Positions 1 to 13,360 of a stretch of DNA of 64,000 nt are shown piece after piece. Position 1 is the stretch's first letter. Every line of letters begins with the position of its first letter. The stretch covers positions 2,500,803-2,564,802 of the forward strand of contig KB445793.1 of assembly GCA_000320605.2 (NCBI GenBank). Direction: 5' to 3'. The translations under genes were made by a program, and so were the position numbers. The notes under the pieces were generated by a model. That model had not been told where the DNA came from, ran no database searches, and saw only the letters and a list, made by a program, of their open reading frames with translations. The DNA is from Gelatoporia subvermispora B. Lineage: Eukaryota; Basidiomycota; Agaricomycetes; Polyporales; Gelatoporiaceae.

Positions 1-2175
1 CGAAGGATATGAAACCTTCTGAGAGTAATTATTGCGACAGTCCTTGCGCTCAAGCCAATATGCTGGAACGTCAGAGGGTGCATCATGTCCCTATACAATA
101 TTTAGCACTTAACATTTATGACGTATACTATAACTGACCTGGGTGCAACTTCTATTATACCAGGAAAAATGAAGTGCTTCAAAGGTAAAGTCAGGACCGT
201 CGTCCAAAGAGTTCTTGTGAGGCAGTGCCTCTTGTCCTAGGCAAGCAAGAAGACTGTCCAAAAGGGATGATTTGAGCTCCTCTGGCATACTGTTGCATAT
301 AAAGCAAAGTAGAGAATTGTCATCGCAGTTGATCCTAAGAACTTGACTGAGATAAACTAGCGGTCAGCAAATATAGAATACTGAGCATAATGTTAACGTA
401 CTTCACGATCTCACTTGAGAAGGTAACCCAGGACTTAGCCTTCAAGTTACGCTTTCCCCCTATATATTGATCTTGCAGCTATTTATGACTAAGTATACAC
501 TTGTTTAAATCTAGGATATATCACTTACCTTTTTCTCTAGCTCCTCAACTGAAGTAACTGCAATCGCCTTAGACACAAGTCTCCGCTGACCTTCGGTCCA
601 CTTCCAGTTCTCTACACGATCTGTCTTGTACGGCTTTTTGCTACGTTCAGATAACTTAAAGCTCATTAAGATGGTCGCCAAAGACTGAGACGATGTAAGG
701 GATGAGTTGTTACTGGCGACTACAGTTGGAGTCACACAGCGAGAGGAAGACAAATCGCCAGAGTGAGATGTAGAAGTGTCTGGTTCAAGAACAGTAGACT
801 GAAGCATCATGCAGGACTCCTCAGCACAGGGTACCAGACAAAGATGCCAGATGTCTGGGTCTCTGGGCTGATATGCGAAGTTTCTGGCACGTAAAATCAA
901 AAGTGAGCAACCTTCCCAAAGAGAGATATTAGAACTTACTTTTTATTAATTTCTACGAATACTTGATCTACCGCATCCAGATTCTGGCAGTTGATAAAGA
1001 ATGGAATACCAAAATTTACCAAAACGTCATTTGGAAAGAAAGCGCTTAGGGCTATAGAAAGTGTAGCCCTCAAGCGTGCAATAATGGGTACAATTGAATC
1101 CTTAACCAAACGGCCTGCGACAGAATCTAGAAAGATATCAAATAAATGGTCACAAAGGAAGTTAAAACGAGCTTACCTTTGTTGGGAGTTCGTAATATAT
1201 GGCCCAGCCAATATGATGCTTTGGCGTTAAGATCTATGATCTTGTCTTGAATATGTAGTGCCGCAACAATGATCAATATATATATAGATCCTGTTAAAAT
1301 ACTTAAGATCTGTTCACTTATTAATTACTGTTAACTTACCACCAGATGCGAGCTGCGCAAACTGGGTACCCGATTGAACGTATCCTAGGAATGTGGAACG
1401 GGAAATGAGGGTATTGCCTCCGAAAACGTAGTCATATATCTTAGTAAGGGAGGACAGAGATGGATCTGTACGCATCAAGCTGAAGAATATCAGTGTCAAA
1501 AGGATGATAGATGTCACTAATTACTTACCTAGTACAGGCAAGTAATAAATGAATATAAGTAATCATGAAAATAAAAGCGTGGCGAGTAGCGTCATCTGTG
1601 AGTGCCTGGATTTTGCAGACTACGTCTCGGATGCTAGCACTGGGGGAGAATGAGGAGGGATAGGGACCTTGCTGAAATATAACCCTGATCCAGAATTGTA
1701 GCTGCAAATCTGAATGATTTTGGGCAGAGGCAAGTAGGCCCAGAACTCTCAGTACGCTAGAGTTCACTACGTCAGGGGCTTGATGAGTAGCTTGCCAAGG
1801 TCTGGCTCTCCGTGCACAAGTCCCGAGAGCAACGGAACGGCTGCGAGTAACCGTTTCTAATTCCGACAGTAAGTTTAGTGTTTGAAGTGCTACGAAATAC
1901 ATGCCATTTTGAGAATTTGACCTTAACGGTCCTACATTACTCTCTACAAGCTCTGAGCCACCTTCAAATACGTTCTCAGAAGCGGAAGGACTGCCCAGCC
2001 CAGGTTCCTGAACGCTCAGACAAGTCCAGGTAGGAGAGGTATCCAGTAAGGTCTGAGCTCGACTTCTAAGTTCAAGAAGCTGAGAAGAGGAGCTAGAAGG
2101 AATAAGAGAAATAAGAAGTTGCAGATCTTCCACAGAGACCGGAAGAAATAAGGGGGATGATGTAGCGGGCAACAT
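1..2175 (-). CDS. TET/JBP-like 2-oxoglutarate Fe(II) dioxygenase, N-terminal part (runs off left edge)
   Basis: Eight exons fit in phase: 2175-1529, 1479-1340, 1290-1177, 1126-940, 883-529, 478-402, 346-139 and 90 to beyond the left edge, all with GT-AG introns. They give about 606 residues. The diagnostic part lies at residues ~480-606: IGGKRNLKAKSWVTFSSEIV, then PEELKSSLLDSLLACLGQ, EALHFSWYNR and, after the next intron, GHDAPSDVPAYWLERKDCR. I recall this order from basidiomycete TET/JBP proteins just before the beta-helix core. The catalytic HxD...H...R residues would lie beyond the edge, so activity cannot be judged. Known family members oxidise 5-methylcytosine and are often carried by KDZ transposons (Iyer et al. 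2014), which fits the Plavaka transposase at 10.3 kb. The start at 2175 is the first ATG after an in-frame TGA. The family call is from memory of the motif block; the coding exons are visible directly. Confidence 0.6.
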
Positions 2176-2225
2176 TTCCGCCAGGGCTCAGGTGAATAGC
2201 AGAGAAGGCGTGAGAAACTGTCCAG

Positions 2226-2245
2226 GCAGCTGGACACTTTCCCAC
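2226..2245 (+). repeat. left arm of 20-bp inverted repeat
   Basis: The plus strand reads GCAGCTGGACACTTTCCCAC. Its reverse complement recurs at 8165-8184 with one mismatch (19/20). The arm ends about 50 bp upstream of the TET/JBP-like start codon. Pairing does not extend on either side, and no target-site duplication is visible directly next to the arms. Confidence 0.6.
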
Positions 2246-2373
2246 AGTAGTGCTAGCTGTAAGCCCAGAATTATAGGTGCTGCGAGTACGAGCTTTTTGC
2301 CGGTAAGCACAGGAGATCAACAGTTATCTAAAAAAAGTGTGCAAGGAGGCCCAAGTACCAGGTAGTTTTAGAA

Positions 2374-2622
2374 ATGACCAGAGGAAGAAAGTACAACTCT
2401 CGTTCAGCGCCCGCCCAAGCTGTGAAGTCTGTATTCACACGGCCCAGTATCGTCAGCCACCTTCGTTGTCGACCTCGTCTAGACAAACTGGCCTCCACAT
2501 TCTCTCTTTTTCGATTTCTTCGAGAGCAGGAACAACCCAGAGACAGACAACATTATCTTCTGGACAAACGGTGGACCTGGGTACTCATCTTCGTCGGGAC
2601 TGTTTACGGAGCTAGGTGCGTG
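2374..2622 (+). pseudogene. unassigned coding-like fragment
   Basis: This open frame ends in a hydrophobic stretch (residues ~66-81, [16 protein letters not shown]) followed at 2623 by a good splice donor, GTGCGT. That suggests one captured exon of a membrane protein. I do not recognise the parent gene. It is the first piece inside the left inverted-repeat arm, on the same strand as the other fragments. It could be a chance frame. Confidence 0.25.
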
Positions 2623-2731
2623 ACGTGCTACTAGGTGTTGTGTCCGTATCGCTTACAACATGTCCGTGATAACCTAGGACACTGCAGAGTGAACACACCC
2701 CACAACATCACATACAACCTGTACTACGGAA

Positions 2732-3052
2732 ATGCGAACCAAGCATGTTCCAACTCGGCCTCTTGACAGGGAGGACAAGGCAGATCACGCCGCGCTCGCC
2801 CGCTGCCTCGCCACCCACACCCACTTCCCAGTCGCAGTGCCCAACTACTGTTGTACAACTCCTGAGTCGCCCGTTTAGCACCCCACCCACGCCGAGGATG
2901 CACTAGCCTTCCTTGAGTTCCTGCTCACTTGGGAGGGCCAGATAGACAGAGGCTGTACAATGTGCGCCGGCTATATCCTCTCGGGCACAGCTACTTGGTG
3001 CACATGCTCAACTCCATCTTGCTCGCGCTGGTCACAGACGACGTGTCATCGT
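2732..3052 (+). pseudogene. kynurenine formamidase-like alpha/beta hydrolase fragment
   Basis: Translation gives EDKADHAALARCL, THFPVAVPNY, TTPESPV, HPTHAEDALAFLEFLLTWEG and, after a frame change, RLYNVRRLYPLGHSYLVHML. This matches the central part of the fungal kynurenine formamidase (BNA7-type) family, including the nucleophile elbow GHS. A TAG at 2876-2878 interrupts the frame and a shift lies near 2951. The N-terminal HGG oxyanion region and the C-terminal Asp/His residues are absent, so it cannot encode an active enzyme. The family identification is from memory; the stop and the frame change are visible. Confidence 0.5.
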
Positions 3053-3072
3053 AGAGTGTTGTAACCCCCGCA

Positions 3073-4235
3073 CGATTGCGTAGGGCGGAGCTGATGGGTG
3101 GGGAGGAGAGGGTGCGGGAAATCTGGGATGGGCTGGAACGGCTGCAACAGGCAAACGAGCAGAGTGAGTCTTACAGCTTGGATCAATCTCATTCTCTGTA
3201 CGGAGGATTAATACACTCACTAGCTCGAGAACGTGTCAGGACTCTCCGCAGCAACCTCTCAGCTCGGCGCAGGACGCTAGCAATCGCCACATCTACCTTC
3301 CTCCACTCTCACGGTAGCACAGGTCACTCCCCGCACTCAAATTCTGTATCACCTCAAGGGCATTCTCCGACCCCTCCGGGCTCATTTCTGTCTGGCCAGA
3401 GCGGCTCTCTGATATCTTCATCCCCCTCTGGTCGCCCAATTTACACTAGACGACCCTCATTGAGTCATGCGTCTGCGCAGCCACTCTCGTCGACCTCCAG
3501 CTCCCGCATGCCGATACCCAGTTTCCGGCCGTCATACCCAATACCCATATCCTCTCCGCAAATCACTTGTACTGGACTATCTACTTCTCCGCAGACACCG
3601 CGCCCGCCAGGGACGTCTCCGGGCGCTGCAGGATCGCATTCTTACTCTGTAGCGGGCCTGGCGTATCACCTCTGCCTGGCGACAGAGGTAGCGACAGTTT
3701 TGCACGCCAGATCGATAATGTGGCGTACCAGCTGGCTGCACTTTCCGACACGATTGCACATGCACGATCTGAGTTGGTGCAGGAACTTGTGGAAGTGTTC
3801 AGTGTGGTGGAGGTGCGTCGTCCTCTACTCAAATGGATCGAGATCAATGTTGAATGTAATGGTGCAGGTAGGAGGTCGTCCACCGCTGGGAGGCAAGGCT
3901 GGCACGAAAGGTGAATGGACAATCGGCGGGCTCGTCCTACCCATTCCGGGCGACATATGCCGTAGGTGCACATCATAATTGTACCGAACTGCCATCCTCA
4001 CCTCACGAGGCCTGCACAGGATATCCTCCGGATCATATCAATGCCGTCATCATCCATACACTACATTTCCTCTCTTTACTCTCCTTCTATCTCGGTATCA
4101 AGCTCCTGTTTGAGGTTGTGTGGGGTAGATCTACGATGTCCCCTTCATCCGTAACGGACTCAGGGCAGCTGGGAGTAGGAGTGCCATGGATAGGGGTGAC
4201 GATGAGAGGGGAAGGTGGAGGATGGGCCAGGTTCG
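3073..4235 (+). pseudogene. ATG14/UVRAG (Vps38)-like gene fragment
   Basis: The first part (RRAELMGGEERVREIWDGLE, IHSLARERVRTLRSNLSARR) is a predicted coiled coil. It is followed by a Ser/Pro-rich stretch, then, after a frame change near 3640, ELVQELVEVFSVVE. An intron follows (donor 3812, acceptor 3866), then GGRPPLGGKAGTKGEW and VLPIPGD, another intron (3970 to ~4019), and YPPDHINAVIIHTLHFLSLL. This is the core layout of fungal Atg14/Vps38-type subunits of the autophagy and endosomal PI3-kinase complexes. The piece stops near GVPWIG...GGWARF, where FAS2-derived sequence begins. The frame break and truncations mark it as a pseudogene fragment. Confidence 0.5.
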
Positions 4236-6613
4236 TCTCATGCCATCTTGGTTGGCTACGACTATGGAGCTCGCGAAGCGTCTCGGTTCGGAAACGGAGG
4301 CGAAGTCATGGTTAGATGGCGTGGTTGCCAGCTACGCTCAGCGCTCAGGCATCTCCTTGTCCGCCGGTGGTGCCAGAGGTGCCAGTGGAGGTGCTTCTGG
4401 CGGTCCGACGATCAACAGCGAGGAGTTCTTAAAGTTCAAGGCCGACCAGGATCAGTTCGCTGCTCAGCAGATTGAGCTCTACATGCGCTATCTCGGTCGC
4501 AACTCCAAAGCAGGCGAAATCAAGCATGATGCTGAGAAGGCGAATGTTGCCGCTTTCCAGGTAAAGTTGGATGCGATCTCAAAGGAGCACGGTGACACGT
4601 ACGTCAACGGTATCCAGCCGGTCTTCGACGTACTCAAGGCACGTCACTTTGACTCCTCTTGGAACTGGGTCCGTCAGGATGCTCTTCTCATGTTCTACGA
4701 CATCATCTTCGGCCGTCTTAACACCATCAATCACGACATGACTGCTCGTTGCATTGCCATCATGAACCATGTCGACCCCGAGCTTGTGACCTATATGCAG
4801 TCGTACATCAATCGCTGCGATCCGAACCGGGGCAAGACGTACAGGTTGGCCAAGCAGTTCGGTCAGCAGCTCATTGAGAACTGCCGAGAGGTCATTGGTC
4901 AGCCTCCACTGTACAAGGACGGTATGTGCGAACTACCTCTAACTGAGTCTCGCTAACGCATTCACAGTAACGTTCCCCACCGCACCTCACACTGAGGTCA
5001 CGGCGAAGGGCAACATCGTGTATTCAGAGGTCGTCAGAGAGAACGTCCACAAACTAGAGGCCTATGTGGAGGAGATGGCAAGCGGCGACACTATCACTCC
5101 GCCTGCCAATATCTAAAAGATCCAGGAGGATGTTCTGAAACTCTGGAACATTGTCAAGACGCAGCCGGAGATTAGCGAGGAGCAAAAGAACCGTATCAAG
5201 GCTTTGTATGGAGGTGTCATTCAGTCGCTCCACAAGTGTCCAGAGTTCCATCCTCGTCACTCTGGTCCTCGTAAGCGCCGCTCCTCGTCGCAGTTTCTCA
5301 GACCCCAGATCTCTGGCGTCACTACCTCCATCACGGCAGACAAGGTCCCACTTCTCCACCTTAAGCGCAAAGTTGGCACCAACTGGGAGTGCAGCAGCAA
5401 CCTGACAAGCGTGTACTTGGATATCCTGCACGAGATTGCCACCTCCGGCACCACGTTTAAGGACAAGAACGCTCTTTGCACCGGCGTCGGCAAGGGCTCG
5501 ATTGGTGTCGAGATCGTCAAGGGTCTACTCTCTGGTGGTGCTTATGTGGTGATTACCACGTCGAGATACAGCCGTGCAACTGTCGAATACTACCAGGGAT
5601 CTTCCAGCAGTTCGGCAGCAAGGGTTCCGCTTTGACTGTGGTTCCCTTCAACCAAGGTTCCAAGCAGGACGTCGAGGCCCTCATTGACTACGTCTACTCT
5701 ACCCTCGGTCTCGATCTGGACTACATTCTCCCCTTCGCTGCCGTCCCTGAGAACGGCTGCGAGATTGACGGTATCGACGACAAGTCTGAACTTGCCCACC
5801 GCATCATGTTGGTGAATCTCCTTCGTCTGCTCGGTGCGGTCAAGAACAAGAAGGCCAGCCGTCAGTTTGTCACTCGACCGACACAGGTGATTCTTCCCCT
5901 ATCTCCCAACCATGGTCTATTCGGCAACGACAGACTTTACTCCGAGTCCAAGATCTCGCTCGAGACGCTTTTCAACCGCTGGAACTCAGAAAGTTGGGGA
6001 GAATACCTCTGTCTCGCAGGTGCCGTCATCAGGTAAGTGCCCATCATTGCTATCTCTACTCTTGTGCCAAAGTTGACCATTGTGATAGATGGACCCGAGG
6101 CACCAGCCTGATGGACGCTACGAACATGGTCACTCACGAAGTGGAAGGGTATGGCGTACGAACGTTCTCCGCCAAGGAGATGGCCTTCAACATTCTGGGT
6201 CTCATGCACCCGCTCCTGTTCAGCATAACTCAAGTGGAGCCGATCTGGGCTAATCTCAACAGAGGTATGGACCATCTGCCGGACCTGGCGGAGATCACGA
6301 CCCGCATCCGCACAAGCCTCAACAAGAAGAGCGAGCTCCGTCGTGCAATTGCTAGAGACAACGCTGCCGACTTCAAGGTTGTCAACGGCATTGAAGCCGA
6401 GCATGTCCTCCAGACTGTCGATGTCACCCCCCATGCCAACCTTCGGTTTGAGTACCCTCAACTTGAGTCGGTCGAGTCGCTTGCAGATGTGTCTAAGCTG
6501 CGTGGCATGATCGACCTGGAGAAGGTTATTGTCATCACGGGTTTTGCCGAGGTGGGCCCTTGGGGCAGCTCTCGTACGCGATGGGAGATGGAAGCCCGTG
6601 GCGAGTTCACGCT
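4236..6613 (+). pseudogene. FAS2: fatty-acid synthase subunit alpha (FAS2) fragment
   Basis: The piece starts at MELAKRLGSETEAKSWLDGV (4266), downstream of the acyl-carrier domain. It continues through the structural region (ARHFDSSWNWVRQDALLMFY) and the whole ketoreductase domain ([20 protein letters not shown] near 5490, [39 protein letters not shown]). It ends abruptly at WGSSRTRWEMEARGEFT (~6611), before the ketosynthase and phosphopantetheinyl-transferase parts. Introns remain (4922-4967 and 6032-6089). A TAA at 5114-5116 and a one-base deletion at about 5596 (YYQG / IFQQFG) break the frame, and a normally glycine position after AVI reads Arg. Sequence is otherwise well kept, which suggests recent capture. 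A functional FAS2 must exist elsewhere. Confidence 0.85.
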
Positions 6614-6615
6614 CC

Positions 6616-7393
6616 ACCGTTCCCACCACCTCCACCGTTCATCCCCCTGGATGCACAGAGTGCCAAAGATCAAATTGGCCTGCTCAAGCAGTATTATTAG
6701 TCGCGTTTTTCCGCACTACCCACCACATACCCCCCAGCGCCTGCCACAGTTCCCCTCATTCCATACCCTTCTGGTTTTGTACCAGGACCCTCATTTATCC
6801 CCCCTGCCCAGCCTCTGTATGACCTCGCCAAGCGCGTGGACCCGCACTCCGGGCTGCCCGTCCCCGTGGCGTGCCTCAACTTCGGCCCCGCCAATGCACT
6901 CGGTAGCGTCAAGATTCACAATGGCGAGCACGTCCTCATGGGCCAGTACCTTACCAAGCTCTCCTCGCTCGGAAGGTGCGTCCGCGGCCTTTTTTTTTAC
7001 GCGTGCAGGCGGGTGCTGAGATGCCACATTGTGCCTGTGCAGCTCCAAGAACCGGAGGTTTGTTGCCTCCGATGGGCAGGGGTACCACTGGGCACATCAG
7101 GCGGGCCAGGACGACAAATGGGTGGTGAGTGCACCCCGGCTATAGCTACACACCATCCCGGCATCTGACAGACCGCGTGCAGTGCCAGAACGCGAGCAAC
7201 TACCATATCATGTCGTACACGCTCAAGGCCGCAGGCGAGCCAAAGTACACCGGCTCGTCCGGCTGCGCGCTGACCATTGAGGAGGACTATGCATACCTCA
7301 CCCCAGGTTCGTCATGTGCCCATTTGTGGGTGTGCTCGTCCCGCTCACCCGGATTGGCAGAGCTCCTAGCCTCACTCACCATTATGCGCCACA
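6616..7393 (+). pseudogene. small basidiomycete DUF protein fragment (DUF6593-like)
   Basis: Four exon pieces splice in phase: to 6975, 7043-7124, 7183-7306 and from 7361. They give a Pro-rich N-terminus (FIPPAQPLYDLAKRVDPHSG), then RRFVASDGQGYHWAHQ, KWVCQNASNYHIMSY, GEPKYTGSSGCALTIEEDY and [13 protein letters not shown]. The F.ASDG..Y.W / ...A.Y.L / ...SLTIMRH pattern is common in small uncharacterised basidiomycete proteins; the DUF number is uncertain. An in-frame TAG lies at 6698-6700. The frame passes straight into FKS1 sequence at about 7393, so the original C-terminus is gone. Confidence 0.45.
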
Positions 7394-7669
7394 TCGCTGA
7401 TCGAATGGGATAACCTCATCAAGGACACGAAGATCCTTGCCAAGGAACCGGCAATGTACAATGGGTCAAACCCCTTTGGTGTCGACGAGAAGGGACAGTC
7501 TAAGCTTGACGACCTTCCGTTCTATTGCATCGGTTTCAAGAGTGCCGCGTTGGAGTTCACCCTGTGCACGTGCATCTGGGCTTCACTTCGCACGCAGATG
7601 CTGTACCGCACTGTCTCTGATATGATGAACTACATGAAGGCCATCAGCACCCATTGCCCGATTATTTGA
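7391..7669 (+). pseudogene. FKS1: 1,3-beta-glucan synthase (FKS1) fragment
   Basis: The frame [52 protein letters not shown] and [13 protein letters not shown], then MMNY, matches the strongly conserved segment before the catalytic core of fungal glucan synthases. Two positions that are normally Arg (TLRTRIW) read Cys (TLCTCIW). Homology stops after MMNYMKAI, and the frame ends at TGA 7667-7669. This is about 90 residues of a protein of roughly 1,800, so it has no function as glucan synthase. Confidence 0.8.
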
Positions 7670-8164
7670 CTTATAATATATCTATCTAATCCGTTCTATC
7701 TGTTGTGGGACACGCTGCTTGTCCTGTCTCACCTATGGTACTTGATTTCCTGGTCATCAGTGTGCCTGTCACATTGTGTGCTATGTGCTTTGATTAGCTT
7801 GAAATTGTCCACAACGGTGAGAATAGAGCAGTAAAACTAGGCAGCAATTTATGCCCTGTTAAAATATGCTAGAGTTTGCGCATGATAACTTTAACTGCGA
7901 GCTTATTTTGCCTCCTTTTATCTTAAGATTGTTACTGATGATTCTCTTAGGGTAAGTGCAACTACGTCTCGCAAGTAGGGGTTCTGTTTCTACGTAAGTT
8001 AGTGATATTCAAGCATCTGGTCCACATTATGAGCTGTACTAACGCATATAAATGGGTGAGCTGGTTCTTTTGACATACGCCGGTTTGACCTAACCTGTAG
8101 ATCTCAGCAAAACCACAGACATGTGTTCTAAACATTATGCCCAATAGCAGCAAGGCGGCTAAGG
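7670..8164. other. AT-rich spacer, no gene seen
   Basis: Sequence between the FKS1 fragment and the right repeat arm. No coherent frame or RNA gene was found. A weak GGACA/TGTCC hairpin near 7709-7725 was checked as a Helitron 3' end, but no CTRR terminus follows it. Confidence 0.4.
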
Positions 8165-8184
8165 GTGGGAAAGTGTCCAACTGC
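8165..8184 (-). repeat. right arm of 20-bp inverted repeat
   Basis: The plus strand reads GTGGGAAAGTGTCCAACTGC, the reverse complement of 2226-2245 with one mismatch. A weaker related string (about 15/20) occurs near 10139-10158, just upstream of the Plavaka gene, so the motif may belong to KDZ ends in general. Confidence 0.55.
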
Positions 8185-8329
8185 TAGTATACAATGCACA
8201 CAAATAACGTCAAGAGCCTACATCCAGCAACTTCAAATTTTCTACGGAGACCTAGTAAGCGAAGTACTAAGTGGATAAAAGGCAGGCTTACCTAGCACAG
8301 ATGAATTGGGATTATCACTTTGTTCGCGC

Positions 8330-9963
8330 TCATACTGTACGCTGACTCTCTTGAGATGATCCCTCTTCCTGCTCCTCTTCACGACGCCTCTTCTGTCTCT
8401 GCCAGACATTCTGAAAGCCTGCCCCAGTAACACTTTCCACAGCTGATTTCTTCGTCTCAAGAGCAGCGTTATGATTCTCCGGATAAGCATCATTGATACG
8501 CGTAAGCAAGGTTGACACTACTCCATCTTGAAAGAGTGTAACAATGTGGTTCCAGTCAATGGGAGGTTGAAGAGGTGCGTTGGAATTTACTGGTATACGT
8601 ATGTTAGAAGAGGCTGTAGCCGATGACTCTGGTGTGCAAAGGATTTGCTTGATATCCAGGAGAATCATGCTAAGAGCTTCATTAACGTCATCGGCATATG
8701 ATTGGAATTTATTCTTGCTCTTGCAACCAGGAACAAGATCCTATACAAGCAATGAAATCAGTAGTAACATTTAGAGTGCTAACATTGACTAACTATTTCA
8801 ATAGATTGCTCAGGAAAGAACCGATGAAGCACCTCCGCAGTAAGACTAATTTTTCCCAGAAACCGCTGGCCGTGAACATCAACAGGCCCCCAACCACCAC
8901 TATCAGCCAAAAGCTGAATCAATTCAGCTTTAGAATAAGATGTTTTCTTGAATGTAGCGGCAAGATTTGAATTCCGACCAACGGTATGAGACGTCTCCTC
9001 AAGGTTAAATACAACAGCACCCATAATTGTAATATTCTGAGGAGTGGTGAAGTGAGTGCGAATAACTTTGAGGACGTCACGATGTGTTTGAGTATTTGCA
9101 AACTCATAGATAAAAACACATAGGTCGGAGTCAGCCGCTTTGATATTGCCATCCAAAGTAAACCATCCAACGCCTTCAATCTTGGTACCGTTTGCTTGAG
9201 TATACCATTTGGTCACTGACTTGTCATTGCCTAGGTTGTCATTCAAAGATTCCGCCAAATTCTCCATGAAATATGATGTGATGGCATCATGCATAGGGGC
9301 GATGCCAGGCCATTCGATAAATAAGGTGCGTTTAGTTTTCCACCACCAAAAGCTAGCTTTTGATATGAAGCAGATCTTATTACAATCATAGAATATTTAC
9401 TTACTGAAAGCGTGCACCATTTAACTGCTCAAGACCTTCTACAAATGTTTGCACGACGACTACTTCAATATTATCAAATTTCTTGATATATTGATAATGT
9501 TAACGCAATGAAAGAAAGGCATTTGCTAACAACATACAACAGTGCTAGGTGTGGACGGTATTTGGTTGCGTTGGATAAGTGATCTGGTGTATTCTAGTGG
9601 CTTCCTTTTTGCATCAATTGTTGTTATAGGCGCCATGGTACTTGAATCCTCAACAATCGCAGCTGGCTGGGATTTGAGAAGTGATGTTACAGCAACATCT
9701 GAAACATCTACGAGGAAATCCACCGACAGATAAGCCAGATCCTGAAATACTTTGTAAGAAGTCTATACCGCTGCAACTTTCAACTTGCTCCTTATTCCTC
9801 GGAGATACAGCTGTACTGTTGGCTTGTCGGGCGTAAAAAAAGGAAGAGGCTCTTTGTAAAGAGGTACGTTCAGAGGCTTCACCGTAGACCAAGTTAGCCA
9901 TGAGAGGCAAATTGAAAGAAGTGTTACACCTAAAGGAGATGCCTGTTGCTCGCACGTCGACAC
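8330..9963 (-). CDS. unrecognised 480-aa protein, divergent from the Plavaka transposase
   Basis: Five exons join in phase: 9963-9769, 9741-9541, 9481-9405, 9352-8794 and 8740-8330 (stop TGA 8330-8332). Conserved-looking segments include FFTPDKPTVQLYLRGI, KFDNIEVVVVQTFVEGLEQL, TLFIEWPGIAPMHDAITSYF, DSDLCVFIYEF and GWGPVDVHGQRFLGKISL, and the tail is Lys/Arg/Glu-rich. I do not recognise a family. The EW...HD...D..V.IYEF pattern faintly recalls PD-(D/E)XK-like proteins of basidiomycetes, but this is weak. The start faces the transposase start 386 bp away, as ancillary genes do in KDZ elements, so it is probably element cargo. The intron 9742-9768 is only 27 nt, which makes that junction the weakest part of the model. 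Confidence 0.5.
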
Positions 9964-10348
9964 GTCAACAGGCGTGTATAAACTTTACTCTCAGCAAGGT
10001 TCCAAACCTAGACATTGTGCAATCTATCCTTCTCATTTACTTCAAGCAATAACCAGATCTCATTATGATACTTTTTCTGACTTCTGAGCTACGTACAGAA
10101 GCTAATGCTACTGAAGGCTACGCGTTAGATCTATTAATCGTGGGAACTTGTCCTAGCGCCTGGATGCTTTCACACGTTTACCGCATTCGAAAGCGTCTAT
10201 TTGCTCCGCTGTGCGCAATCTTAGCCTGCAACTTTCTTCGTATTGGTATCAACTACCTCTGCCTCACATTTTGCTAGATCCTTTCACGGTACGTATATAT
10301 CTCAGACTTGCACTATCCAACTAAAGCTGTTTTTATACATAATTAGCT
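9964..10348. promoter_or_regulatory. divergent intergenic region of the KDZ block
   Basis: Lies between the starts of the unknown minus-strand gene and the Plavaka transposase. It contains an open frame at 10065-10277 with no recognisable content and the string near 10139 related to the inverted-repeat arms. It is presumably a shared promoter; no specific site can be supported. Confidence 0.3.
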
Positions 10349-13300
10349 ATGGATAACTCTGAGCTAGAAAACCGCCGCTGCCCAGCTTGCTGTCGGATAT
10401 TTAATACCTCTCAGGGCATGGTTGCCCACTTATCTTCAGCAAGAACTTGCTCATGGTATCGCAAGGGAAAAAGAAGACAACAAGATGCAGAGGATCTAAC
10501 TTCAGATGTTGCGATGGACGTGGATACTCTGGAGTTTCAACCTGGTAATTTTGAAGAGACAGTTCAAACTGTCACACAAAATGAGGAGGAAGAGCAGGAT
10601 GTGGAAGAGATTATAGATGAGCTAGATGATGAGTTTTTCCAGTTCATACCTGCAAATAGCACTTATGAAGACATTGCAGACCCAATGTCTCAACCTAGTG
10701 CATCTACGTCAAGTTCCTCAAGAACTCGCTCTGCCATGGTACTGGATGATGATGAAGACTCACGGATAGTAGACATCCATTCAACTGCAGGCCGTGTCGT
10801 CCATGTGGACGAGACTCTTAAGCTGCACTGGCTACAAATATTTGGATCTGAGGATCAACCCAGTTCCTCTAGCTGTGATCGTTGGAAACCATTTGCTTCT
10901 AAACTGGATTGGAGAGTGGCATGCTGGGCTGTGAAGGAGGGTGTAGGCCAGAAATCCTTAGATCGTCTGTTGTCAATTCCTGGTGTGCGTATACTTTGTG
11001 TCTCATATTTTGTATTTTTATACAGCTATTTATCTATCTATCTATCTATATCTTAGGTTTCTGAACGCCTTGGACTGTCTTTTCACAATTCACGCTCGCT
11101 GTATCAAATAGTAGATGCTGTCCCTGACCGTGCAACTTGGAAATCTAAAATCCTCGCTTTCAAGAATCGGCCTGATGAACATCATTTGCTATAATACAGA
11201 GATCCTTTAGAGGCCATTCAGGCTCTGTTAAGCAATCCTGCACATGCAAAGAATCTGGTTTATAAGCCTCAAAGAGTTTACACAGACTCTGATCACCAAA
11301 ATTGTATTTATCATGAGATGTAGACCGGAAAATGGTGGCATGCAGTGCAGGTGAGTGATTTCTATATCTAGGTACTTTTCGTGGTCACATACTCATAGTT
11401 AATCTTAGGAGCTATTACCTGTGGGCGCAACAGTTGCCCCAGTGATAATTGCCACCGATAAAACTCAATTGACGTACTTTTCCGGGAACAAGGCCGCCTA
11501 TCCAGTTTACTTAACGCTGGGCAACATTCCTAGAGCTATACGTCGCAAACCATCACAACATGCTTCCATCCTTATAGGTTACCTATCCTGTGATAAAATC
11601 TCTGGACATGGTCTTACCGCTCAGGAAAAACGTTCCAGAGGCCAGCAGCTTTTTCACAACTCTATGCGTATCATCTTACAGCCACTCATCAATGCTGGGA
11701 CTCATGGAGTAAAAATTGCAAGCGGTGATGGTACCGTACGAATAGTATATCCAATCTTGGCAGCATACGTCGCAGATTTTCCGGAGCAATGTCTGGTTAG
11801 CTGCACTAAACACGGTACTTGCCCTAAATGCCGCTGTACAGCAAATCAGCTAGAGCTACCTGTACCTCATGAAGCTCGCAGTCAAGCTTGGACGTTACAT
11901 ATCATTGCCTCAGCAAAAGCTTCCACCACCACTTTCTCGCGCTTTCACAATCAATGTATGGAATCAGATGTCTCTGGATCTGTATATTAACCCTTCTGGG
12001 AGGGATTTCCCTATTGCGATATCCATAATGCTGTTACGCCCGATGTTCTACACTAGCTATACCAAGGAGTATTCAAGCATATCGTATCTTGGTGTCAGGA
12101 AATCATGAATCCTGATGAGTTAGACCAACGGATACGTTGTCTTCCTCTTGCATTTGGTATACGTTATTTCAAGAACAGCATTTCGGGCCTGGCTCAAATC
12201 TCTGGAAGTGAGCGGAAAGACATGGCCCGCATCCTACTGGCCTGTCTTATAGGCAAAGTTCCAAAAGCATTTCTGATCGCCTTTCGTTCCATTCTGGACT
12301 TCATCTACTTGGCGCAATATCCTACTCATGACGACACTACACTGGGCTATTTAGAGCAAGCCTTAGACTGCTTCCATCAGCACAAGTCGGTTATCATGAA
12401 TTTAGGTGTACGAGATCATTTGAATATTCCCAAATTCCACTCGCTCCTTCATTACGTCCAGTCAATACGGTTCTACGGCGCCACAGACAACTACAACACC
12501 GAAATGTTTGAGCGGTTGCATATTGACTTCGCAAAGGAGGGTTGGAGAGCTTCTAATCATAGAAATGAACGTCCTCAGATGGTTCGTTGGCTTAGTCGCC
12601 GAGAGAAGATCGTTCATTTGGAGAGCTATTTGAAGACTACAAAGCAAACGGTAGATCAAGATATATTGAAAAATCGACAGGGCCATGCTATCAAGATTGC
12701 AAAATTTCCACAATCTCCAAAACAAACTCTCTCTGCAGTGGAAAAAACACATTGCGCTCCAGGCTTCACACATTCTCTCAAAACTTTTCTTAATCTCTTG
12801 AATAGCCGTTCACTGTCAAGAGCAGAGCTTAACAATGCAATACTTCCCTTCAATCATATTGATCTATATCATAACTTTAAACTTACTCCTACCGCATTGC
12901 ATGATGACATTACAAAACATGAAGTTATAAAAGCCAAACCAGCAATCAAAGGACAACCTGCACAGTTTGATACGGTTGTTGTTTTCAATTCTCATGATGC
13001 AGAGTCTACAGGAGTAGCAGGTAAGTGCTTACTATATGCTCAAAATATAACATATCATTGATAATCATACTTCTAGGAACTCGTATAGGGCGTCTCAGGG
13101 CAATTTTCACGTTACCCTCAACAATCCATGAAGGAATAAGACCCGCACCTCCGACATGGCCAAAGGGGCCGTTGGCATACATTGAATGGTATTCTCCCTT
13201 AAAATCTACTGCAAATTCTGATTCTCTTATGTATACTGTATCAAATATGCCATTACGGCCAGACGGGATACCTATAGGACAAGTGATACCTCTGACATAT

Positions 13301-13360
13301 ATACGTCAGTCCTGCCAACTAATTCCTCACTTTGGAACATCATCTCCTAGAGAGATATGA
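10349..13360 (+). pseudogene. Plavaka (KDZ superfamily) transposase, inactivated
   Basis: Exons 10349-10984, 11057-11350, 11409-13020 and 13077-13360 join in phase. The N-terminus carries a zinc-finger-like cluster (C11, C14, H27, C34) and an acidic region. The core shows typical Plavaka motifs: GATVAPVIIATDKTQLTYFS, YPVYLTLGNIPRAIRRKPS, CPKCRCTANQLE, PFWEGFPYCDIHNAVTPDVL, AQYPTHDDTTLGYL, IPKFHSLLHYVQSI and NYNTEMFERLHIDFAKEGWR. Four in-frame stops interrupt it: TAA 11192-11194, TAG 11321-11323, TAA 11988-11990 and TAG 12054-12056. The residues normally found there (Trp, Gln) would need only C-to-T or G-to-A changes. No frameshift was found, so decay is by point mutation. Element ends were not located. 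Confidence 0.85.
11031..11051 (+). repeat. (TCTA)n microsatellite
   Basis: About five TATC/TCTA units lie inside the first intron of the Plavaka gene, just before its acceptor. The repeat may be length-variable. Confidence 0.8.

Follow-up and report, generated by a model that had tools for sequence, protein, structure and literature searches.

In this study, we analysed a 64,000-nucleotide stretch of the genome of the white-rot fungus Gelatoporia subvermispora (the window, C3:2500803-2564802) and found at its positions 2226-8184 a mosaic element in which fragments of multiple host genes, captured at the DNA level, are enclosed by inverted ends. The comparison covered the genome of the same fungus (37.7 Mb, 52 contigs), whose contigs are labelled C1, C2 and so on; all other coordinates are those of the window. 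The element is likely to be mobile, and we give about an even chance to its being a non-autonomous Pack-type DNA transposon with an uncertain partner. Literature is cited below by PMC number.

A genome search with positions 2200-8200 returned, besides the query itself, 14 matches on other contigs. Re-alignment against wider parent loci, from which the piece boundaries and identities were taken, divided window 2399-7646 into eight pieces with parent loci on eight other contigs:

2399..2461, + strand: 63-bp piece, 87% identical to C2:167752-167814, which adjoins a WD40-repeat gene
2504..2738, + strand: serine carboxypeptidase piece, 80% identical to C8:1662507-1662741
2744..3049, + strand: alpha/beta hydrolase piece, 87% identical to C5:1530461-1530767
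3053..4250, + strand: ATG14-family piece with an apparent intron, 94% identical to C12:239460-240647
4255..6614, + strand: fatty acid synthase (FAS) piece of 2.36 kb with introns, 95% identical to C14:368344-370704
6614..6815, + strand: piece of a proline-rich gene with no Pfam match, 94% identical to C18:485795-485996
6816..7397, + strand: unnamed-gene piece in which introns are apparent, 87% identical to a locus present as two inverted copies, C15:964396 and C15:969286
7399..7646, + strand: FKS1 (1,3-beta-glucan synthase) piece, 91% identical to C7:365956-366203

These pieces fill 2399-2461 and 2504-7646 except for gaps of 1-5 bases, and the 42 bases at 2462-2503 have no assigned source. On C8 and C16 the weaker matches were carboxypeptidase relatives, and on C38 they were FAS-like pieces (77-83% identity; re-alignment added a further short piece, at 71%). 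Among the parent frames, Pfam identified a serine carboxypeptidase on C8 (4e-20), ATG14 on C12 (4.5e-20), a FAS helical domain together with a short-chain dehydrogenase on C14 and a glucan synthase on C7 (4e-271); the alpha/beta hydrolase match on C5 fell under the curated cut-off, the gene neighbouring the C2 match contains WD40 repeats, and no Pfam match was obtained with the two C18 frames or the C15 parent frame scanned. The initial annotation of this DNA had described fragments of at least five host genes and proposed a genome search for their parents, which were indeed found, at eight loci on eight contigs. Capture itself is thus real, whereas the count rises to eight sources, the C2, C8 carboxypeptidase and C18 pieces having been missed. 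Pfam backs four of the five parents named there (alpha/beta hydrolase, ATG14, FAS and glucan synthase), whereas the frame of the parent called 'DUF' has no match; for the C5 piece, called kynurenine formamidase-like, the Pfam match below cut-off is to alpha/beta hydrolase, and the formamidase label is that annotation's only. The unnamed gene on C15 exists as two inverted copies ~4.3 kb apart, ~18 kb from the contig end (C15:963000-972900).

At the six junctions among the seven larger pieces, neighbours are separated by 5, 3, 4, -1, 0 and 1 bases, and these tiny fillers show no clear microhomology. Parent introns, as far as open frames reveal them, are retained in the pieces, and the FAS alignment, introns included, runs over 2361 columns with one gap; retrocopying, in which exons are joined, was rejected given the kept introns. 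Relative to its parent, the FAS piece contains one stop and one frameshift. All seven gene pieces (7/7) lie sense on the + strand (two-sided sign test, 2 x 0.5^7 = 0.016), where sense was called from open frames and match strands, and the gene direction for C18 and C15 from open frames alone. The introns, sharp breakpoints, scarce spacer and single strand noted initially therefore hold, with junctions of -1 to +5 bases. As for the breakpoints placed near 4235, 6614 and 7393, the second is exact, whereas the others lie at 4250-4255 and 7397-7399.

Outside the captured pieces, the element consists of the following parts:

2226..2245, + strand: 20-bp inverted repeat, left arm, which matches the right arm exactly over its inner 15 bases (2231-2245)
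8165..8184, - strand: 20-bp inverted repeat, right arm, with no hairpin partner beside it
2210..2245, no strand assigned: left-end hairpin (15+6+15), 13/15 paired, whose outer arm 2210-2224 is a 13/15 direct repeat of 8165-8179
2246..2398, no strand assigned: left subterminal sequence, 153 bases, unmatched elsewhere in the genome in the searches made
7647..8164, no strand assigned: right subterminal sequence, 518 bases, ~44% G+C, unmatched elsewhere in the genome in the searches made

The 20-bp inverted ends already proposed for this 5.96-kb segment were confirmed. The two arms agree at 19/20 bases (one mismatch); no other pair in window 1500-9500 reaches this level, and 0/200 Markov-resampled regions contained one that does. 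Across the 37.7 Mb, the inner 15-mer of the repeat is exact at just its two arms, with 3 further sites at one mismatch, on C2, C6 and C17. The left-end hairpin, folded as DNA, gave a z of -3.3 with 1/200 shuffles equally good, and its pairing (13/15) exceeds that of every background window. When up to 2 mismatches were allowed, the 15-base end had 71 genome matches, whereas its reversed control had 43. A single exact variant, TTGACATTTTCCCAC, accounts for 15 of these 71 matches, and 56 remain. The TTGACATTTTCCCAC sites were rejected as the same end family, as in the 7 of 15 that were read the flanks are alike among themselves and unlike the element ends; the 15 places listed (7 read) belong to a different dispersed repeat. 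An inverted pair on C27 (7565/8623) was dropped because one member is the TTGACATTTTCCCAC variant, the pair itself being unread. A hairpin pattern drawn from 2210-2245 and from a related motif at 10140-10175 recovered those two as the only genome sites within 2 mismatches, and at 3 mismatches 7 more places, unread, versus 2 control matches. No transposase gene was seen among the open frames inside the element, as had been stated in the initial annotation.

The genome holds comparable structures elsewhere. Contig C38 (104 kb) contains two more end-to-end mosaics of pieces from multiple contigs, read in three 9.9-kb stretches that were picked for FAS matches and may stop short of the mosaic ends. 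The mosaic at ~36.5-41 kb (within C38:34000-43900) includes pieces matching C2, C7 and C11 and three non-adjacent segments of the C14 FAS gene, together with 61-bp and 279-bp stretches that are present in several places and may be repeats. The other, at ~78.6-83.5 kb (within C38:75500-85400), is built from segments with matches in C1, C20 (three), FAS, C9 (two) and a different part of C38; its orientation is mixed, with FAS on the minus strand and an open frame of the C9-matching piece on the plus strand, and an 18-bp inverted pair (5647/8530 of that stretch) lies within pieces. The FAS segments in both mosaics show 79-86% identity.

Comparison of the captured pieces with their parents revealed a directional decay. 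Parent-to-copy C>T/G>A changes versus the reverse numbered 82 v 25 for FAS, 40 v 14 for ATG14, 30 v 3 for the alpha/beta hydrolase, 25 v 9 for the carboxypeptidase, 47 v 7 for the C15 piece, 15 v 4 for FKS1 and 9 v 1 for the C18 piece, and the 63-bp piece showed no such lean (2 v 2). In FAS, these changes affected 54/410 CpG sites versus 28/934 other C/G sites. Such mostly CpG-centred decay is the pattern expected if the copy was methylated. On the assumption that the C38 FAS pieces can serve as outgroups, the derived state at FAS differences falls more often on the window copy than on the C14 gene (46 v 13, 22 v 7 and 13 v 7 with the three C38 loci). The C38 pieces themselves have a weak C>T/G>A lean or none (79 v 81, 35 v 20, 82 v 90, 46 v 32 and 59 v 39).

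Differences outside CpG sites also bear on the donors. Among the non-CpG A/T sites of FAS, 16/216 differ at codon position 3 and 3/734 at positions 1-2 (p 1.6e-8), with a weaker trend of the same kind at non-CpG G/C sites (22/368 v 10/504, p 0.003). The silent difference in FAS is probably mostly older than the capture, because change after capture in a dead copy should strike all codon positions equally, and the FAS donor was probably a working allele or lineage other than the present C14 gene. A silent-site excess was absent in ATG14 (5/157 v 6/297) and in FKS1, where the changed codons were 6 silent and 11 not. In addition, non-CpG divergence is unequal among the seven pieces (2.8% to 9.4%; homogeneity p 3e-5; p 0.007 when the carboxypeptidase is left aside), which fits stepwise capture or unequal donors.

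In the mechanism that we propose, pieces of at least seven host genes would have been copied from genomic DNA, introns included, into a small element with inverted ends. The captures were probably sequential and may have involved gap repair, switching among unrelated templates and end joining. A transposase acting on the ends would then have moved the element, the most likely candidate being a Plavaka (CACTA-like) enzyme, of which a dead relative lies 2 kb off, and the insert would afterwards have decayed by CpG-type C-to-T change, as in methylated DNA. The segment combines two traits of a Pack-type element, terminal inverted repeats and captured non-transposon genomic DNA between them. The 153 and 518 unmatched bases that separate the repeats from the captures support this reading as well, since they stand where an element's own ends would be.

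The evidence for a Plavaka partner comes from the right-hand side of the locus, where two features were recorded:

10343..13360, + strand: Plavaka transposase remnant (PF18759, E 1.5e-64) with a broken reading frame
10140..10175, no strand assigned: weakly palindromic motif related to 2210-2245 (26/36 identical whichever way it is read), a short way upstream of the Plavaka remnant

The remnant lies 2 kb from the element, and its C-terminal part is annotated as CERSUDRAFT_63676 (protein 100% identical over 92% of the query). The genome contains no close copy of it; ranked by score, the seven matches that follow are 38-45% identical. In all, 28 Plavaka matches are present in this genome. The 26/36 match of the motif compares with a maximum of 24 among 100 window shuffles, and TGTCC occurs in both motifs, at 2219 and 10149. 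Kojima groups Plavaka with CACTA in one broad clade and describes PlavakaA ends as TGT..ACA with 2-bp duplications (PMC12730594). In the C50 Plavaka copy, the best TGT/ACA pair agrees at 15/20, a value matched by 3/40 shuffles, and similar sequence is present in the C10 copy; the C7 copy, with TGT/ACA pairs of 14/20 at best, was left unused.

Several results weigh against a mobile Pack-type element, and against Plavaka as its partner. The initial annotation had suggested looking for target-site duplications and for further segments with the same ends, and neither was found. At the repeat edges, no match of 4-11 bp joined starts at 2224-2233 with ends at 8177-8186, and a looser scan (starts 2200-2239, ends 8160-8209) gave 12 matches, each 4-6 bp long and not on the direct-repeat line, versus a shuffle mean of 13.4; with ends taken symmetrically about the inverted repeat, only 2-bp matches occurred, at 2218/8192 and 2228/8182. 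The genome searches returned no second copy of the element ends. A second hairpin arm at the right end was rejected, as 24-70% of shuffles were equally good, and self-comparison of the C38 stretches read found no repeats bounding those mosaics. Regarding the Plavaka side, 2/200 shuffles were equally good in a gapped local alignment with the left end, the right end resembles the 10140 motif no more than ordinarily (61/200 shuffles equally good), 10140-10175 folds no better than shuffles (z 0.38), and 25/633 background windows are as palindromic as that motif. The best TGT/ACA pair of the mosaic agrees at 11/20 and has no duplication, the only listed pair having a 2-bp duplication reaches 7/20, and the candidate ends of the C50 Plavaka differ from the mosaic ends. 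Of the mobile Pack-type element suggested at the outset, the capture between inverted ends is established; mobility, although neither a duplication nor a second copy was found, is likely. The Plavaka link is regarded here as a lead, in which the remnant would represent a relative of the candidate mobilising enzyme, and the element was not assigned to Plavaka or to Pack-TIR because no target-site duplication and no second copy were found.

The missing duplication agrees with a Helitron2-type rolling-circle element, in which fragments would be captured during transposition between asymmetric terminal inverted repeats, a hairpin at one end and an inverted arm at the other; Helitrons produce no target-site duplications (PMC4289320). 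In favour, the left end folds into a strong hairpin (z -3.3), fungal Helitron2 ends carry inverted repeats that form part of hairpins (PMC5148889), and the genome has 17 Helitron_like_N matches, all above cut-off and several in long open frames. We nevertheless regard this explanation as rather improbable. Within 2 mismatches the element hairpin recurs only at 10140, the one-mismatch end matches (near-exact patterns only) fall on C2, C6 and C17, contigs with no listed Helitron match, and the right end has no hairpin, although some Fusarium Helitron2 groups likewise have none at the 3' end (PMC5148889). Moreover, a study of Pleurotus Helitrons reported no tendency to capture host fragments (PMC4289320). 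Helitron1, with 5' TC, 3' CTRR and a hairpin 10-12 nt before the end, was rejected, as no A-then-TC start exists in 2200-2260; CTAG followed by T is present at 8184-8188 after the right arm, where no hairpin stands out (z -0.04). Long Helitron-like open frames, possibly intact, were recorded at C42:54532 (2524 aa), C21:580089 (2090 aa) and C8:1381784 (1833 aa).

Alternatively, the mosaic could be immobile filler DNA: a break at a site able to form a hairpin would have been mended by copying several ectopic loci as templates. On this view, the direct repeat formed by 2210-2224 and 8165-8179 (13/15) would be a duplicated staggered break and the inverted repeat a palindrome remnant. The tiny junction fillers with no clear microhomology, the single copy of the element and the C38 mosaics, for which no terminal repeats were seen in the parts read, all speak for this. 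Against it, 153 and 518 unmatched bases separate the repeats from the captures, and unequal divergence of the pieces is unexpected from one repair event unless the donors were unequal alleles, as one donor (FAS) does look like another allele; taken together, we consider immobile filler unlikely, though worth keeping in view. An assembly artefact is hardly credible, and nothing was found in its favour. A chimera would give pieces ~100% identical to their parents, whereas these are 80-95% identical, are separated by small fillers and, with the exception of the 63-bp piece, show directional, mostly CpG-centred C-to-T decay.

In the neighbouring sequence, the left-flank open reading frame 1525-2187 has no homologue at E 0.001, and window 1673-2139 is 69% similar to C1:1034718-1035163, where a minus-strand frame is broken by stops; the sequence that flanks the element on the left may thus itself be a pseudogene or an old repeat. 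To the right, the open frame 8779-9396 (- strand) has a single relative in the database (163 aa, 66% identical over 78%), and 13578-14311 matches two pieces within C25:380651-381734 at 93-96%, possibly as another repeat.

Capture of fragments from multiple genes is documented chiefly in plants. Among the titles and abstract openings listed from the open-licence literature, a scope outside which most subscription journals lie, we found no earlier description of such a mosaic in basidiomycetes. In a hAT-type element of Pyrenophora tritici-repentis, called the first transduplication in fungi, a fungal DNA transposon likewise bears a host-type gene (histone H3-like) between inverted repeats; it differs in having one host-type gene, many near-identical copies and a full hAT gene in its long form (PMC3538342), whereas here many fragments are present in one copy, with no transposase inside. 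The animal Pack-TIR elements and plant Pack-MULEs also hold host DNA between terminal inverted repeats, and gap filling and template switching have been proposed, with single copies arising mostly via gap filling (PMC8277862). Their captures are short (median 224 bp; 305 bp in Pack-MULEs) (PMC8277862), whereas 5.2 kb from eight places is captured here. Like Fusarium Helitron2, the mosaic has inverted repeats within a hairpin, but its right end has no hairpin and no ends common to other loci were found (PMC5148889). As to Plavaka of Agaricomycotina, a remnant lies near the mosaic and its upstream side shares a motif with the left end, but no pair of TGT..ACA ends with a 2-bp duplication, as in PlavakaA (PMC12730594), stands out.

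The closest analogue of the mosaic is the soybean CACTA element Tgm-Express1, which at ~5.7 kb has inverted ends and carries fragments, both exonic and intronic, from five unrelated host genes (PMC1947982). Tgm-Express1 differs in being a plant element within a known gene that has a wild-type allele, and in giving chimeric transcripts (PMC1947982), whereas the present one is fungal, has eight sources and showed no target-site duplication. We tentatively suggest, as a possible but rather doubtful extension, that the mosaic is a CACTA-like, Plavaka-mobilised multi-gene Pack element, the counterpart of Tgm-Express1 in a mushroom-forming fungus, in which sense pieces of at least seven genes were added stepwise, one of them from another FAS allele or lineage, and that the C38 mosaics are relics of the same process. 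With eight traceable sources, retained introns and measurable decay, the mosaic makes the order, mechanism and silencing of capture testable in a sequenced white-rot fungus.

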